Positions 6 to 4,387 of a stretch of 5,745 nt of DNA are shown here, one piece after another (position 1 is the first letter of the stretch; each line of letters opens with the position of its first letter). The stretch comes from JADFSZ01 sp022560555 [NCBI: PVC group bacterium] (GTDB taxonomy: Bacteria; GCA-001730085; JADFSZ01), in the NCBI GenBank assembly GCA_022560555.1, contig JADFSZ010000116.1, forward strand, positions 1 through 5,745. The letters are read 5' to 3'. The translations under genes and the position numbers were made by a program. Under the pieces are notes generated by a model, which was not told where the DNA came from, searched no databases, and worked only from the letters and a program-made list of their open reading frames with translations.

Positions 6-506
6 ATGAAAAAATTACTCATAACAATGATGGCTTTAATGCTGATGGTTGGTATAAGCGCATCTGCAGATGCGGCGACCCCAACAGACACTATCAATGT
101 GACCGTCACCATTACTGCTAGCGGAGTCAGTGTCGTTGTGACTCCTGATGCTTGGGCGATCAGTGACATAGATGCATCGGACTCACCGACTACCGTTGGT
201 ATCGGTCCGGATTTCTTCACGGCGCTCAATGACAGTAATGCGAGTGAAGATCTTACGCTTAGTTCAGCAAGTAGTGATGACTGGACATTCGCTAACACAC
301 CTGGCGCTGATCAGTTCGGAATGAACTTTAGCACCGGCGGAGCGTTGCCAGTGTGGAACACGATTGACTCTTCAACGGGTGGCGAACTAGCAACTGGCTT
401 GGGAGCAGGTGCAGTTCGGACATTCGATTTACAATTGGAAGCGCCGACTTCAACCACGGTCGGAGGAACTCAGCAGACAATTGTTGTCACAGTGACAGCA
501 TCGTAA
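6..506 (+). CDS. Small acidic secreted beta-rich protein, possible structural subunit
   Basis: This encodes a 166-residue exported protein that I do not recognise as a named family. Residues 1-24 form a clear Sec signal peptide: MKK, a Met/Leu-rich core, then ASADAA, with cleavage likely after residue 23 or 24. The mature part has about 16 Asp/Glu against a single Arg (R138), no Lys, no Cys and no Tyr, and is rich in Thr, Ser, Val, Ala and Gly, as expected of an extracellular all-beta protein. A strand-like segment TINVTVTITAS (29-39) opens the mature chain, and a similar one, TIVVTVTAS (158-166), ends it. W50, W93 and W117 are probable core residues. The start codon lies at the edge of the window, so its ribosome binding site and promoter are not visible. 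A strong hairpin follows, then two exported Ig-like genes on the same strand. A structural or surface-layer subunit is inferred; a binding or adhesion protein is equally possible. The reading frame is secure, the function is not. Confidence 0.85.
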   Translation: MKKLLITMMALMLMVGISASADAATPTDTINVTVTITASGVSVVVTPDAWAISDIDASDSPTTVGIGPDFFTALNDSNASEDLTLSSASSDDWTFANTPGADQFGMNFSTGGALPVWNTIDSSTGGELATGLGAGAVRTFDLQLEAPTSTTVGGTQQTIVVTVTAS

Positions 507-528
507 GAGGAAGCCAAAACGATAGATA

Positions 529-560
529 TCTCACCCCGCCTTTTTGAAGGCGGGGTGGGA
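529..560 (+). terminator. GC-rich hairpin between the secreted subunit gene and downstream genes
   Basis: A near-perfect inverted repeat pairs 529-542 with 547-560: 14 pairs including one T-G wobble, with the innermost 11 pairs (CACCCCGCCTT with AAGGCGGGGTG) perfect and a four-base TTTG loop. It begins 22 bases after the stop codon of the first gene and ends 41 bases before the start of the next. No T-run follows on either strand, so it is not a textbook intrinsic terminator. It could be a U-tract-less terminator, a partial terminator (attenuator), or a 3'-end stabiliser protecting the upstream message. The pairing is directly visible; the role is inferred. Confidence 0.6.
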
Positions 561-601
561 GCGTCTATTACCATGTCAAAAATAGATAACAAGGGATAAC
601 T

Positions 602-1549
602 ATGAAAAAAAATTTACACTTCATAAGTTTGATAATTATTTTGTCAGGTGTCTTTATCATTCATAATCTTTATGCCGAAGAAGAAACACCGCCTCCAAAA
701 GAAATGGGTCTCAGGGTTGAACCCGGCGGCATGCTGGTTCAATATGTCCCCATAGGCATCACTTATGATTTTAAGAAAGAAGTGGGAATCCCTCTCACGA
801 TTTACAACCGGGATGACCGGGCGCATACCTATGTGCTCACAACGAACAAACCCTCCACGGTCGCGGCAAGAAAATGGCTGAAGGGTTATATTGAAATTCC
901 CAATCCCACGTGGTTTTGGTTTGATCAAAACGAGATCACCGTCCCCGCTCAGGGTACGGCCGAGGTCAATATGTATCTCAAAACTCCGGATGCTGAAAAA
1001 TATTACAATCAGCACTGGGCGATTTCCCTGGGAGTCAGCGGCAAACCCGGATCGGGACAACTGTTTGCTTTGGCCGTCTTTCCGCGCGTTGAGATTGAAA
1101 CATTGAGTAAAGATGATGCCAACGAAAATCCCCAGGGCATATTGGCGACCATGCCGAGCACGCTTGCCTTTGAAGATGTTGCTTTGGGAACAAAAGAGTC
1201 GAGAACGCTTCGAATATTTAACAATAGTGACAAAAAAAATCAATACAAACTGACACCGATGATTTTTCCCGCAGATCCGGCCAAAAGGCAAATATTTCCG
1301 TCGCCGACATACTCCTGGATCCCGGAGGTGAAATGGATTAAGGCGGACAAGAAAAAAATCCGGATCAACCCGAGGGAAGACGCGGAGGTAACGATCAGCA
1401 TAAAAATCCCCGTTGATAAAGAGCATTATCATCGCAAATGGGAAGCGATATTGTTTATTGAACCGGAAGTTGGGATTTCGGCCTTTGCGCGCATTCAAAT
1501 CGAAACGAAATCTGAAAATGAAAACATTGCAAAAGAGAATAGCGATTAA
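602..1549 (+). CDS. Exported protein with two duplicated Ig-like domains
   Basis: This encodes a 315-residue secreted or periplasmic protein. The start is supported by AAGGG at 591-595, six bases before the ATG. Residues 1-25 form a signal peptide (MKKN, hydrophobic core, LYA before EEE). The rest is two Ig-like, beta-rich domains, about 36-167 and 180-302. They are duplicates: with a constant offset of 141 residues, W104/W245, D108/D249, I112/I253, AEV 120-122/261-263, K127/K268, P129/P270, Y135/Y276 and W139/W280 align without gaps, and both domains end in IET (165-167 and 300-302). The layout (an N-terminal strand with a VEPGG-like turn, then N-rich strands and a VP turn) recalls the DUF916-type partners of WxL surface proteins and periplasmic pilus chaperones, but I cannot assign it to either. 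There is no transmembrane or sorting signal at the lysine/glutamate-rich C-terminus. It lies between two other exported genes and overlaps the next by 32 bp, which points to co-expression. Confidence 0.85.
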   Translation: MKKNLHFISLIIILSGVFIIHNLYAEEETPPPKEMGLRVEPGGMLVQYVPIGITYDFKKEVGIPLTIYNRDDRAHTYVLTTNKPSTVAARKWLKGYIEIPNPTWFWFDQNEITVPAQGTAEVNMYLKTPDAEKYYNQHWAISLGVSGKPGSGQLFALAVFPRVEIETLSKDDANENPQGILATMPSTLAFEDVALGTKESRTLRIFNNSDKKNQYKLTPMIFPADPAKRQIFPSPTYSWIPEVKWIKADKKKIRINPREDAEVTISIKIPVDKEHYHRKWEAILFIEPEVGISAFARIQIETKSENENIAKENSD

Positions 1550-2342
1550 TTTACCCAGGACGGCCCTGTGGATCTTTTTCTTGATTCTTGCCTCTCCGCA
1601 AGCCGGATGGGCCGCGTCGAGCGGGTCGGTGGCTATTACCGTCACGATCGAACAGATCGCGGGTGTTGAAGTTTCGGCCCCAACGGATCAATCCGGAGAT
1701 CCTAACGAGACATTAAACTATCTTTTTAATGTAGAAAACACGGGTTCGGGTCCCGACAATTTTGATTTAACAACTGAATCGACGGAACGTTTCCGGGTCA
1801 ATTTGCCGCAAGGAAAGAAAACCGGAATCCTGAATCCCGGCGATATCGCTGCTGTTTCGGTTGAAACAACGATTCCCGAGGGTGAGGCGGCCGGGGTCCA
1901 AGACATCCTGACACTTAAAGCAAAATCCCAGATCAATCGAAAAGTGTTTGATACAGATTTTGTCACGACAACGGTAAACACGGCCGCGGGAATTCATATC
2001 GATCCGCCGCGGGACAAATCAGATCAGCCCGGCAAAACAGTTTCCTATAACTTTACATTAGCCAATAGCGGGAATGTGATTGATCAGTATCAATTGATCG
2101 CAACATCGTCTTCGGGATGGAGCGTTGCGCTTCCCGAAGGAAATCTCAGCGACTCCCTCGCTTTTGGAAAGGGAGGCGGCACAAAGCAGCAGATTGCGGT
2201 TGAGATCACGATTGATACGAATGCAGCGGATGGAACGATTGACACGCTGACTTTACGGGGCACGTCTCTCTTTGATCCTTCAGTTTTTCAGGAAGTTTTT
2301 GTAAACACAACAGCCGTGATCCGCGGCCGGAACCAACCCTAA
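1518..2342 (+). CDS. Exported protein with two NEW3/COG1470-like Ig modules
   Basis: The product has 274 residues. I chose the ATG at 1518 because it places a normal signal peptide at the N-terminus (MKTLQKR, hydrophobic 16-30, cleavage near WAA 31-33). The frame stays open further upstream to a TTG at 1413, but that would bury the signal peptide. The mature protein starts with a strand SVAITVTI (37-44), then carries two modules, about 50-153 and 159-267. With an offset of 109 they share P55/P164, D57/D166, S59/S168, P62/P171, T65/T174, Y68/Y177, F70/F179, N74/N183, G76/G185, D80/D189 and L96-P97/L205-P206. After one four-residue shift they share D129/D242 and LTL 131-133/244-246. The pattern Pro-Gly...Tyr-x-Phe...Asn-x-Gly...Asp followed by a later LTL strand is typical of NEW3/COG1470 extracellular Ig-like repeats. 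There is no anchor at the C-terminus. No good Shine-Dalgarno sequence precedes the start, and it overlaps the upstream gene by 32 bp, so translational coupling is likely. Confidence 0.85.
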   Translation: MKTLQKRIAINLPRTALWIFFLILASPQAGWAASSGSVAITVTIEQIAGVEVSAPTDQSGDPNETLNYLFNVENTGSGPDNFDLTTESTERFRVNLPQGKKTGILNPGDIAAVSVETTIPEGEAAGVQDILTLKAKSQINRKVFDTDFVTTTVNTAAGIHIDPPRDKSDQPGKTVSYNFTLANSGNVIDQYQLIATSSSGWSVALPEGNLSDSLAFGKGGGTKQQIAVEITIDTNAADGTIDTLTLRGTSLFDPSVFQEVFVNTTAVIRGRNQP

Positions 2343-3170: not shown

Positions 3171-3560
3171 CTACAGTTCATGTTCTTTTTCATTAACTTC
3201 AAATTCTTCAGTTTTTTCTTTTTCAACAGTAAGGCTCCATACTCTTATATTGCCGGTGAGGCCAAGCCCAAGCTTTTTGGGATGTTCACCACCCAAACTC
3301 CGGTAGTATTTTTCTATAAGATCATAAACCTTTCTTTTATTATTAATCCCCACCTTATCATCCGGGACATTTTTCATATCAGTGATTTTCCCTTCAAGAT
3401 CGCTGCCGGCCGATTGTTTAATATCTGTATGGAGGTTACGATGCGTTCGACCATCGACATGAAGATCATAATATACTCTAGATATCATGTTTTTTTCATC
3501 ACTTCCGAAATCTTTGGAGTCCAACACACATTTATTAAAGATCATTTTTGCCTTTTTCAT
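3171..3560 (-). CDS. Hypothetical soluble protein, 129 residues
   Basis: This encodes a small cytoplasmic protein with no signal peptide or membrane segment. I do not recognise a named domain. The strand is decided by an excellent ribosome binding site, AAAGGAGG (complement of 3567-3574), six bases before the ATG; the 156-codon frame open on the opposite strand across this interval (3180-3650) has no such support and translates to a Phe-rich, low-complexity protein. Segments that look conserved are the SRVYYDLHVDG strand pair (27-37), the following IKQSAGSD turn (47-54), the helix RKVYDLIEKYYRSLG (76-90) and NIRVW (104-108). The C-terminus is Glu/Lys-rich. Its start is 13 bp behind the stop of the 144-residue membrane protein gene, so the two are almost certainly co-transcribed. 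Base composition is AT-richer than in the flanking exported genes. It resembles a widespread class of small proteins with an N-terminal beta pair and a C-terminal YYR helix, but I cannot name a function. Confidence 0.8.
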   Translation of the reverse strand: MKKAKMIFNKCVLDSKDFGSDEKNMISRVYYDLHVDGRTHRNLHTDIKQSAGSDLEGKITDMKNVPDDKVGINNKRKVYDLIEKYYRSLGGEHPKKLGLGLTGNIRVWSLTVEKEKTEEFEVNEKEHEL

Positions 3561-3566
3561 TCTCTG

Positions 3567-3574
3567 CCTCCTTT
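3567..3574 (-). promoter_or_regulatory. Ribosome binding site of the 129-residue gene
   Basis: On the - strand this reads AAAGGAGG, six bases before the ATG ending at 3560, which is close to a perfect anti-Shine-Dalgarno match. Its first base is also the last base of the stop codon (TGA, 3574-3576) of the upstream gene, so ribosomes terminating there would sit on it; translational coupling is likely. It decides the coding strand at this locus. Confidence 0.8.
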
Positions 3575-4008
3575 CAATGAATTAATATTTTTGGCTTCCT
3601 CTTATCGTCATCCTCCTCCCATATGTCTTTACATCTATATCCGTAGATGAACATAGCGATATATTGCGGAATAAGAAGGAGAAAAATCCAAACAACAATA
3701 AACATGTCAAATATCATATCCATAAACATTCCTAGGGCGTAATTTTCTTTATATATATTGGACAGGACAAAGCCATTGTGGATGAAAAACCAAAACAAAC
3801 TCATGAGCCACCATATTCTCCAGAGGATATAATTAAGAATTTTCTTTTTAAAAGTATAGCCATAAACCGCAAGAAGATCTATAGGTGAAAGATGTGTCAC
3901 TAGGGTATCAAGAAGTTTTATCGGGGCATACATAAAAAAATAGGGAAATAAAATAAAGGAAGAAACGCTCAATGTAAACACAATCCAAAAATAAATCTTC
4001 CAGAACAT
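3574..4008 (-). CDS. Hypothetical four-helix membrane protein, 144 residues
   Basis: This encodes an integral membrane protein of unknown function. Hydrophobic segments are visible at about 5-27, 30-51, 58-84 and 91-122, separated by short basic loops (FKKKIL 53-58). The tail after 124 is charged and probably cytoplasmic, with the acidic run EEDDD (131-135) followed by KRKPK. Aromatic residues, especially Trp and Phe, are unusually frequent (for example WRIWWLMSLFWFF, 63-75). The ATG at 4008 is preceded by AAGGA (complement of 4016-4020) at a spacing of seven bases. It is immediately followed by the 129-residue gene and probably forms a two-gene unit with it, driven by the TATAAT at 4045-4050. 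AT-rich composition and lack of recognisable relatives suggest accessory rather than core function. Confidence 0.78.
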   Translation of the reverse strand: MFWKIYFWIVFTLSVSSFILFPYFFMYAPIKLLDTLVTHLSPIDLLAVYGYTFKKKILNYILWRIWWLMSLFWFFIHNGFVLSNIYKENYALGMFMDMIFDMFIVVWIFLLLIPQYIAMFIYGYRCKDIWEEDDDKRKPKILIH

Positions 4009-4044
4009 TCATCTTTCCTTATAATAAATCAATAGAATGCGAAT

Positions 4045-4050
4045 ATTATA
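4045..4050 (-). promoter_or_regulatory. Consensus -10 box ahead of the 144/129-residue gene pair
   Basis: The - strand reads TATAAT, a perfect sigma70-type -10 hexamer, 36 bases before the ATG ending at 4008 and just beyond the stop codon of the 104-residue gene. The best -35 at 17-base spacing is the poor TTCTTG, while the better TTGCCA lies only 14 bases upstream, and there is no extended TGn. In AT-rich DNA a chance match is possible, so this is a moderate candidate. Confidence 0.4.
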
Positions 4051-4060
4051 CACCTTTTTG

Positions 4061-4375
4061 TTATTGGCAAGAAATAATGACTAAGCCTACAAGCAAAATA
4101 CCCCAAATGGTGATTTTAGTTGTTAAGAACCCTATAAAGAACCCCAAATCTATTTTGTGAAGTTTTTGTGATTTATACAATCGAACATTGTAGAGATAAT
4201 AGGCGAAAAGGATAAAATAGCCAAATGCGCTTGGCCAAATGACAGGCTCTTGATAAACACAAAAGTCCAAAAAATAGATCGCTAAAACCAGATAATACGA
4301 AATCGCGTACGGAACACAACAATCATGACGGTAAAAATTGTAAATCTTCGAAAACAGTCCAAAGATTTTTTTCAT
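4061..4375 (-). CDS. Hypothetical three-helix membrane protein, 104 residues
   Basis: This encodes a small integral membrane protein of unknown function. I place the start at the ATG ending at 4375 rather than at the in-frame GTG three codons upstream, because GAGGTG (complement of 4382-4387) lies at an ideal distance from the ATG and overlaps the GTG itself. Hydrophobic segments are at about 23-40, 47-62 and 75-102. The N-terminus is basic (MKKIFGLFSKIY), followed by a CysCys pair (19-20) and C39 and C103, with no clear metal-binding spacing. Tyr and Phe are frequent, as in the 144-residue neighbour. It starts 24 bp after the ychF stop codon without an obvious terminator between them, so it could be transcribed from the ychF promoter. 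I know of no functional link between the two. Confidence 0.72.
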   Translation of the reverse strand: MKKIFGLFSKIYNFYRHDCCVPYAISYYLVLAIYFLDFCVYQEPVIWPSAFGYFILFAYYLYNVRLYKSQKLHKIDLGFFIGFLTTKITIWGILLVGLVIISCQ

Positions 4376-4381
4376 CAATCT

Positions 4382-4387
4382 CACCTC
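4382..4387 (-). promoter_or_regulatory. Ribosome binding site that sets the 104-residue gene start
   Basis: On the - strand this reads GAGGTG, with six to seven bases between its core and the ATG ending at 4375. Because the alternative GTG start is the last triplet of this same element, initiation at the ATG is favoured. Confidence 0.6.

Follow-up and report, generated by a model that had tools for sequence, protein, structure and literature searches.

A three-gene cassette of a PVC group bacterium as a candidate chaperone-assisted, donor-strand-type surface assembly

In chaperone-usher pili, the labour is divided between a tip that only accepts a strand, a repeating subunit that both donates and accepts, a base that only donates and a PapD-like helper. 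The donor strands of CsuA/B have been described, in the accessible part of PMC4654587, to carry alternating N-terminal residues. WxL clusters comprise a small protein, a large protein with a C-terminal domain and a partner with two immunoglobulin-like (Ig) domains; their WxLIP protein consists of DUF916 and DUF3324, and AlphaFold2 predicts that a WxLIP strand inserts into WxL (PMC10599100, accessible text). Archaeal threads (Saci_0406) are donor-strand filaments for which the accessible text of PMC9715654 assigns neither chaperone nor usher. Here, we compare with these systems a cassette of three genes (g1, g2 and g3) found in the PVC group bacterium JADFSZ01 sp022560555, on a complete contig of 5,745 bases (C86) that was analysed at its full length and is referred to as the window. 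We propose, with a probability of roughly 0.47, that in this diderm host the cassette encodes an assembly of the donor-strand type, located in the envelope or at the surface and built with the aid of a chaperone.

The small protein g1 and the two-Ig protein g2 are a recurrent pair. A scan of genome contigs with g2 revealed two confirmed loci, L011 from Hydrogenedentota (38% identity) and L012, and in both a g1-like protein adjoins g2. Profiles of g1 (A2) and g2 (A3), with eight rows each, were then run over 386 genomes; g1 was identified in 20 of these, g2 in 29, and both in 16 genomes spanning 11 families (Fisher p = 3.4e-17, not phylogeny-corrected). The profile rows came partly from five genomes (G000, G004, G067, G072 and G116), and a recount without these found g2 in 12 of 16 g1 genomes (24 of 381 genomes overall, p = 2.7e-13); when their genus and family mates were also removed, nine of 12 g1 genomes had g2 (p = 1.5e-10). 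Several g2 matches are weak and partial, and strict cut-offs gave 18 genomes for g1 and 19 for g2, with 15 in common. Of the 16 genomes with both, 14 have the two genes adjacent (within 5 kb, same strand); G208 and G291 are the exceptions. In L011, L068 and L069 a gene for a large protein ending in a g1 domain is followed by small g1 and then by g2, as it is in L073 with one extra gene of 173 aa; small g1 is also followed by g2 in the window, L070, L071 and L072, and the order is reversed in L012, L017, L074 and L075. In genome G000 only one g1 copy was found, and the window starts 5 nt before g1, so that the sequence upstream of this gene is out of view. The cassette of exported β-rich proteins suggested by the initial annotation was borne out as a conserved one for the small subunit and its two-Ig partner, which co-occur and adjoin in distant genomes. 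The condition set beforehand for refutation, that the genes fail to co-occur, was contradicted for g1 and g2; g3 is not kept as a family in the loci seen.

The g1 protein of the window has no Pfam match at E ≤ 1, and the best values among 22 g1 members were E = 0.01 in Pfam and E = 0.0013 in NCBIfam. The g1 profile produced a single short match in PDB (CFAP74, E = 3.4e-4), and none of the Pfam, NCBIfam and PDB searches indicated similarity to pilins. Trp93 and Pro147 are invariant in all 22 alignment rows, and conservation is also high in the last strand (QQTI.VTVTA). The domain either makes up a small exported protein or forms the very end of a large one: in all 11 large proteins examined, which are those of the mapped loci, 0-6 residues follow the g1 match at the C-terminus. 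One of these large proteins (L011, 3484-7338) has a HELTH motif and is presumably an M4-type metalloprotease.

The g2 protein contains one domain twice (hhalign between the halves 99.7%, pairwise E = 3.4e-25), unlike PapD, which is built from an N and a C domain. The Pfam matches of g2 are weak and of generic Ig type (fn3_5, 1.1e-6; FixG_C, 1.5e-5; ASH, 9.5e-5); WxLIP_PGBD (PF06030) was matched at E = 9e-4, below its cut-off. PF06030 matches four of 20 g2 members at E ≤ 0.1, the family otherwise showing generic Ig-type matches. DUF3324 gave no Pfam match with g2, whose C-terminus reads as hydrophilic, with no terminal helix. The g2 profile found nothing in PDB below E = 0.019, WxLIP standing at 0.021. 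A connection is provided by bridging two-domain proteins (A9; from L120, L018, L121, L115 and L127), which match the Enterococcus faecium WxLIP over both domains (E = 1.4e-5) and g2 domain 1 (alignment A6) at 97.4% (pairwise E = 1.1e-11); the L120 protein exceeds the WxLIP_PGBD cut-off. Through A9, g2 is probably a distant homologue of WxLIP-type proteins. An AlphaFold2 model of g2 (pLDDT 64) matched the E. faecium WxLIP (9i1y, chain residues 18-158; Z 10.9, rmsd 3.2 over 112 residues), CsuC (6fq0; Z 10.6, rmsd 3.0 over 103) and Caf1M (2os7; Z 10.4, rmsd 2.1 over 91), with Z scores of 9.4-10.6 for CsuC, Caf1M and PapD among the matches listed. Ciliary ASH/Hydin proteins ranked higher than these (Z to 12.2, with rmsd near 18). 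The model suggests that the putative helper has a PapD-like fold, a likeness of fold only and at the level of the domain. Another genome has a further copy of g2 (G253:C98:74-940), which contains a TAG in frame.

Like WxL clusters, the cassette and its relatives combine a small domain-only protein, a large protein with the domain at its C-terminus and a two-Ig partner, and the first domain of the partner appears distantly homologous. In contrast to these clusters, the cassette has no WxL match, no DUF3324 and no terminal helix, g2 duplicates one domain, and the host is a diderm, as indicated by an Omp85 match (E = 5.4e-73) in the source genome (1.66 Mb, 222 contigs, 91.5% complete). WxL (PF13731) gave no match in this genome (control positive), was not among the families matched by the 22 g1 members at E ≤ 0.1, and was found in two of the 386 genomes, neither of them among the 20 with g1; WxLIP_PGBD likewise gave no match in the source genome. 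The comparison of g1 with two WxL proteins gave 0.8% in hhalign (a shallow alignment), tblastn of a WxL protein against plasmids produced no match, and WxL (A11) found nothing in PDB at E ≤ 1. The assignment as a WxL cluster was rejected because there is no WxL domain, DUF3324 or terminal helix and the host is a diderm. Among the control genomes, Thermotoga maritima was above the cut-off for WxLIP_PGBD and not for WxL, and L088 (92-1547; G255, kinship 'same domain') encodes two tandem WxL-domain proteins (PF13731, 1.7e-9 and 3.4e-7).

The same data bear on the possibility of a WxL-like platform in diderms, in which g1 would be a C-terminal domain for attachment to peptidoglycan or another surface and g2 a WxLIP-like stabiliser, with no polymer formed. 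The composition, which is the same as in WxL clusters according to the accessible text of PMC10599100, and the bridged homology of g2 to WxLIP are in line with this explanation. It is opposed by the lack of a WxL match in the source genome and in all g1 genomes of the set, the low hhalign score of g1, and the lack of DUF3324, duplicated second domain and hydrophilic C-terminus of g2, and it leaves unexplained the N-terminal strand common to g1 and its neighbours described below. We regard it as unlikely, ranking it second after donor-strand assembly.

The third protein consists of two repeats (33% identical, E = 7e-15), in agreement with the tandem structure originally noted, whereas their NEW3-like character corresponds to a weak match only (NPCBM_assoc, E = 0.008, below cut-off), the other Ig-like matches also being sub-threshold. 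Its score against the choice-of-anchor T family (NF041740) was 38.8 bits versus a cut-off of 70, and g3 (P0003) matched nothing in PDB at E ≤ 1. In the loci seen, g3 is not conserved as a family; only the slot and the N-terminal strand recur. The slot, defined as the protein next to g2 or, in one genus, next to g1, holds differing exported proteins in the relatives, and behind the strand these carry fn3 (L016) or Ig (L071, L072) domains or, below cut-off, TSP3 (L068) and the NEW3-like repeats of the window.

The g1 proteins carry a segment of alternating residues right behind the signal peptide, and g3 has a similar one. This likeness was scored with a strand matrix derived from the N-termini of 12 g1 proteins, selected and positioned by hand, with signal peptides called by a crude home-made rule and with 89 secreted proteins from the genomes of relatives as controls. 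Fifteen slot proteins were defined, from which L015 was dropped (no signal peptide by the rule). Nine of the remaining 14 exceeded the 95th percentile of the controls, compared with five of the 89 controls themselves (Mann-Whitney p = 2.4e-6; test proteins were scored without the rows of their own locus, the percentile coming from the full matrix), and p was 2.0e-6 for all scored adjacent proteins, slot and others. The score of the window g3 was reached by none of the 89 controls. The strands of g1 and slot proteins are also more alike within a locus than between loci (30.4 versus 20.6, p = 1e-4; mean versus controls 9.1) in a comparison of hand-placed 24-residue windows that left out L069, L074 and L075 (near relatives of L068 and L017) as well as L012 and L084. 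In large proteins, the segment ahead of the g1 domain is less pronounced (small versus large, p = 7e-4, the small set including the low-scoring contig-edge fragment L016 3-524, which probably belongs to the end of a large protein). Three of the 11 large proteins have no signal peptide by the rule, and seven of the eight scorable mature N-termini are at background, with 19 to 57 of the 89 controls as high.

Chance adjacency of three unrelated secreted proteins appears highly improbable: the absence of g3 as a family from the loci seen would fit it, whereas the g1/g2 pairing in 11 families, the co-occurrence test, the shared strand and the overlap of g2 with g3 speak against it. A secreted matrix, an S-layer-like mesh or a soluble adhesin complex, with the strand serving as a dimerisation or g2-docking handle and no head-to-tail polymers, would be compatible with the exported proteins, the acidic g1 and g3, the fn3 and Ig domains of the slot proteins and the lack of an usher match in the genome. 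However, the same-locus matching of strands and the low N-terminal scores of most large proteins suggest a polarised use of donors and acceptors, and we consider this explanation quite improbable. The slot proteins also bear on the idea that the cassette supplies cargo and helpers to a type-IX-like secretion pathway: those of L070 and L071 have FlgD_ig above cut-off, the latter also Por_Secre_tail and CHU_C, and L016 has CHU_C below cut-off. Outer-membrane barrels, which we take to be PorV/UPF0164-like, are encoded near g2 in L015, L016, L076, L079 and L080. The window g3, however, has no C-terminal sorting domain in Pfam, and a UPF0164 search of the genome was uninformative, as no control gave a match; such a route seems very unlikely.

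In the proposed donor-strand assembly, all three proteins would enter the periplasm via their signal peptides, and the tandem PapD/WxLIP-like g2 would act as a chaperone that binds g1 domains and keeps them soluble. The g1 protein would be the repeating subunit, its N-terminal strand docking into the g1 domain of a neighbour, and g3, with the same strand before its Ig-like repeats, would be a donor and not an acceptor, capping or anchoring one end of a presumably extracellular structure. In the relatives, the large protein that ends in a g1 domain and mostly lacks the strand would form an acceptor-only tip; a counterpart may lie just off this contig. The combination of a putative acceptor-only large protein, a donor-plus-acceptor small protein, a donor-only g3 and a PapD-like helper makes donor-strand assembly the most likely reading. 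The alternating N-terminal residues point in the same direction, being as in the CsuA/B donor strands described in the accessible part of PMC4654587.

The archaic and alternative chaperone-usher pili (CsuC-CsuA/B, CfaA, EcpB) share with the cassette an exported two-Ig helper with a PapD-like fold, a subunit with an alternating N-terminal strand (for CsuA/B, PMC4654587 as far as accessible) and, in cassette relatives, a large protein that ends in the subunit domain. The cassette differs from them in having no PapD_N match, no usher match in the genome and no similarity of g1 to pilins in the searches made, and strand exchange is only proposed. The usher family (PF00577) had no match in the source genome, with a positive Escherichia coli control. 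The usher-like profile A8 gave only a weak C-terminal match there, in a protein that does not look like a barrel; its PDB search returned no usher and only NOMO2 (E = 0.0019). A classical chaperone-usher system was rejected in view of the lack of an usher match in the genome and of a PapD-family sequence match. The archaeal threads (Saci_0406) are likened to the cassette by the mode of assembly and not by g1 or g2 sequence, and they come from an archaeon without an outer membrane; as they lack an assigned usher in the accessible text of PMC9715654, an usher may not be indispensable for a donor-strand fibre.

The initial annotation had named surface fibres and WxL/DUF916 clusters as resemblances and had seen no usher; both resemblances proved to be good leads, and the genome-wide searches extended the absence from the usher to WxL and WxLIP_PGBD. 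Its statement that the cassette fits no named system holds for the WxL and chaperone-usher systems, and is to be qualified by the probable distant homology of g2 to WxLIP and by its predicted PapD-like fold. The best reading is that of an usher-less relative standing between WxL clusters and chaperone-usher systems, and we rate the cassette as a candidate variant of strand-sharing, PapD-fold-assisted surface assembly.

Several observations weigh against this interpretation. Neither an usher nor a convincing usher-like protein was found in the incomplete genome, which makes the exit route of the putative fibre the weakest point. PapD_N (PF00345) gave no match with g2 at E ≤ 1, and the g2 model is of moderate quality, with matches that span about one domain of a kind common to many Ig-like proteins. 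The g1 model is of low confidence (pLDDT 37) and so does not show a missing strand or an acceptor groove; as the last g1 strand is much like the first, the fold may be complete in itself. Four of the 20 g1 genomes have no g2 match (G086, G213, G226, G365), and G001, the one genome of the same phylum shown, has neither gene. The strand test was devised after the pattern had been seen, and its loci are partly related (L017, L074 and L075 from one genus, L068 and L069 from one family). L011 passes via a segment behind the expected one, so that eight of 14 slot proteins pass at the expected place, and five fall short: L071 and L075, with 11 and six of the 89 controls as high, and L013, L081 and L083, in whose loci no small g1 was found, a circumstance that we count in favour of the proposed assembly. 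The same-locus result weakens to p = 0.007 without L073 and L085, whose partners are themselves hit by the g1 profile, possibly as paralogues of g1. Among the large proteins, the g1 domains score slightly above random in the upstream segment (p = 0.006), and the N-terminus of the L073 protein is high (two of 89 controls as high). Finally, g3 of the window weakly matches the g1 profile (residues 28-89 and 143-204, E = 2e-4 and 1e-4), so that in this case a wider homology between the two may account for the strand they have in common.

A set of usher-like clusters (L018 2664-8349; L120 1545-8080; L121 3292-8289; L137 917-6377; L138 5044-9613; L139 1-3238; L140 3262-8712) also encode a two-domain PapD/WxLIP-like protein, mostly together with small exported subunits, and bridge g2 to WxLIP. 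Unlike the cassette, they have a WxLIP-type second domain and a putative usher-like protein of 836-1032 aa. Several of these long proteins carry C-terminal prealbumin-like domains; they have no usher match in Pfam or PDB and may represent an unrecognised usher. In the small subunits compared, alignment with g1 is limited to the signal peptide and the first strands, and the small-subunit alignment (A10) found nothing in PDB at E ≤ 1. The genomes of L137 (G116), L138 (G257) and L139 (G291) also carry the g1/g2 families elsewhere. A bolder and rather doubtful proposal is that the cassette represents an undescribed usher-less donor-strand fibre system of diderms with a duplicated-domain chaperone, and that the bridging usher-like clusters link WxL/WxLIP and chaperone-usher pili to one ancestral strand-sharing machine.

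No description of the cassette was found among the matches listed in open-licence literature on WxLIP/WxL, chaperone-usher and donor-strand topics (titles and abstract starts), and as far as found there its product is undescribed. The donor-strand proposal gives a testable joint function to two conserved families of little-studied bacteria, one unnamed (g1) and the other with generic Ig-type matches only (g2). It suggests that WxLIP of the Gram-positive wall and PapD-type chaperones are used alike across the divide between monoderms and diderms and, if true, predicts fibres in bacteria that have the cassette and no recognised usher beside it.

Table 1. Features of the g1-g2-g3 cassette, in positions of the window
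Feature	Position	Strand	Description
g1	6-506	+	166 aa; small, acidic and exported; founding member of the g1 domain family
g1 N-terminal strand	87-119	+	proposed donor strand DTINVTVTITA, alternating
g1 C-terminal motif	441-503	+	conserved, APTS...QQTIVVTVTA
g1-g2 RNA hairpin	521-569	+	no T-run
g2	602-1549	+	315 aa; exported two-domain PapD/WxLIP-like protein, proposed chaperone
g2 domain 1	713-1117	+	PapD/WxLIP_PGBD-like
g2 domain 2	1127-1519	+	duplicate of domain 1
g3	1518-2342	+	274 aa from ATG 1518; exported, two NEW3-like repeats; proposed base or partner
g3 N-terminal strand	1623-1655	+	GSVAITVTIEQ, g1-like
g3 repeat 1	1671-1973	+	
g3 repeat 2	1998-2312	+	33% identical to repeat 1

The gene structure of the cassette was confirmed as initially annotated, with three consecutive genes and a g2/g3 overlap of 32 nt (the codons checked were the stops of g1 and g2 and the start and stop of g3). 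Each protein has a signal-peptide-like start, called by the crude rule for g1 and g3 and by sequence reading for g2, and with cleavage sites placed by reading the mature proteins have pI values of 4.1 (g1), 6.2 (g2) and 4.4 (g3) and contain no cysteine. The small acidic character of g1, the two domains of g2 and the hairpin between them thus all agree with the initial annotation. An antisense open reading frame (ORF) of 333 aa (644-1645, minus strand) was considered in place of g2 and rejected, because the conservation sits on the plus strand.

The hairpin is strong (−35.7 kcal/mol, z = −5.45, none of 200 shuffles equally good). At four further junctions of g1 and g2, some of them folded only in part, the z scores were +0.75, −1.12, −2.13 and +0.44; none is comparably strong, and they do not support a conserved element. 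An intrinsic terminator was ruled out, there being no T-run; the hairpin could possibly stabilise the mRNA or act as a dosage element that sets the ratio of subunit to helper.

The GC content is 45-50% in g1-g3 and 40% in the remaining contig (2343-5745), which may reflect acquisition of the cassette or only coding bias. After g3, the opposite strand encodes a TauE/SafE-type permease, three short ORFs and YchF. The short ORFs (129, 144 and 107 aa; 3171-4384, minus strand) lie between the permease and YchF and have no Pfam match; those of 144 and 107 aa resemble membrane proteins.

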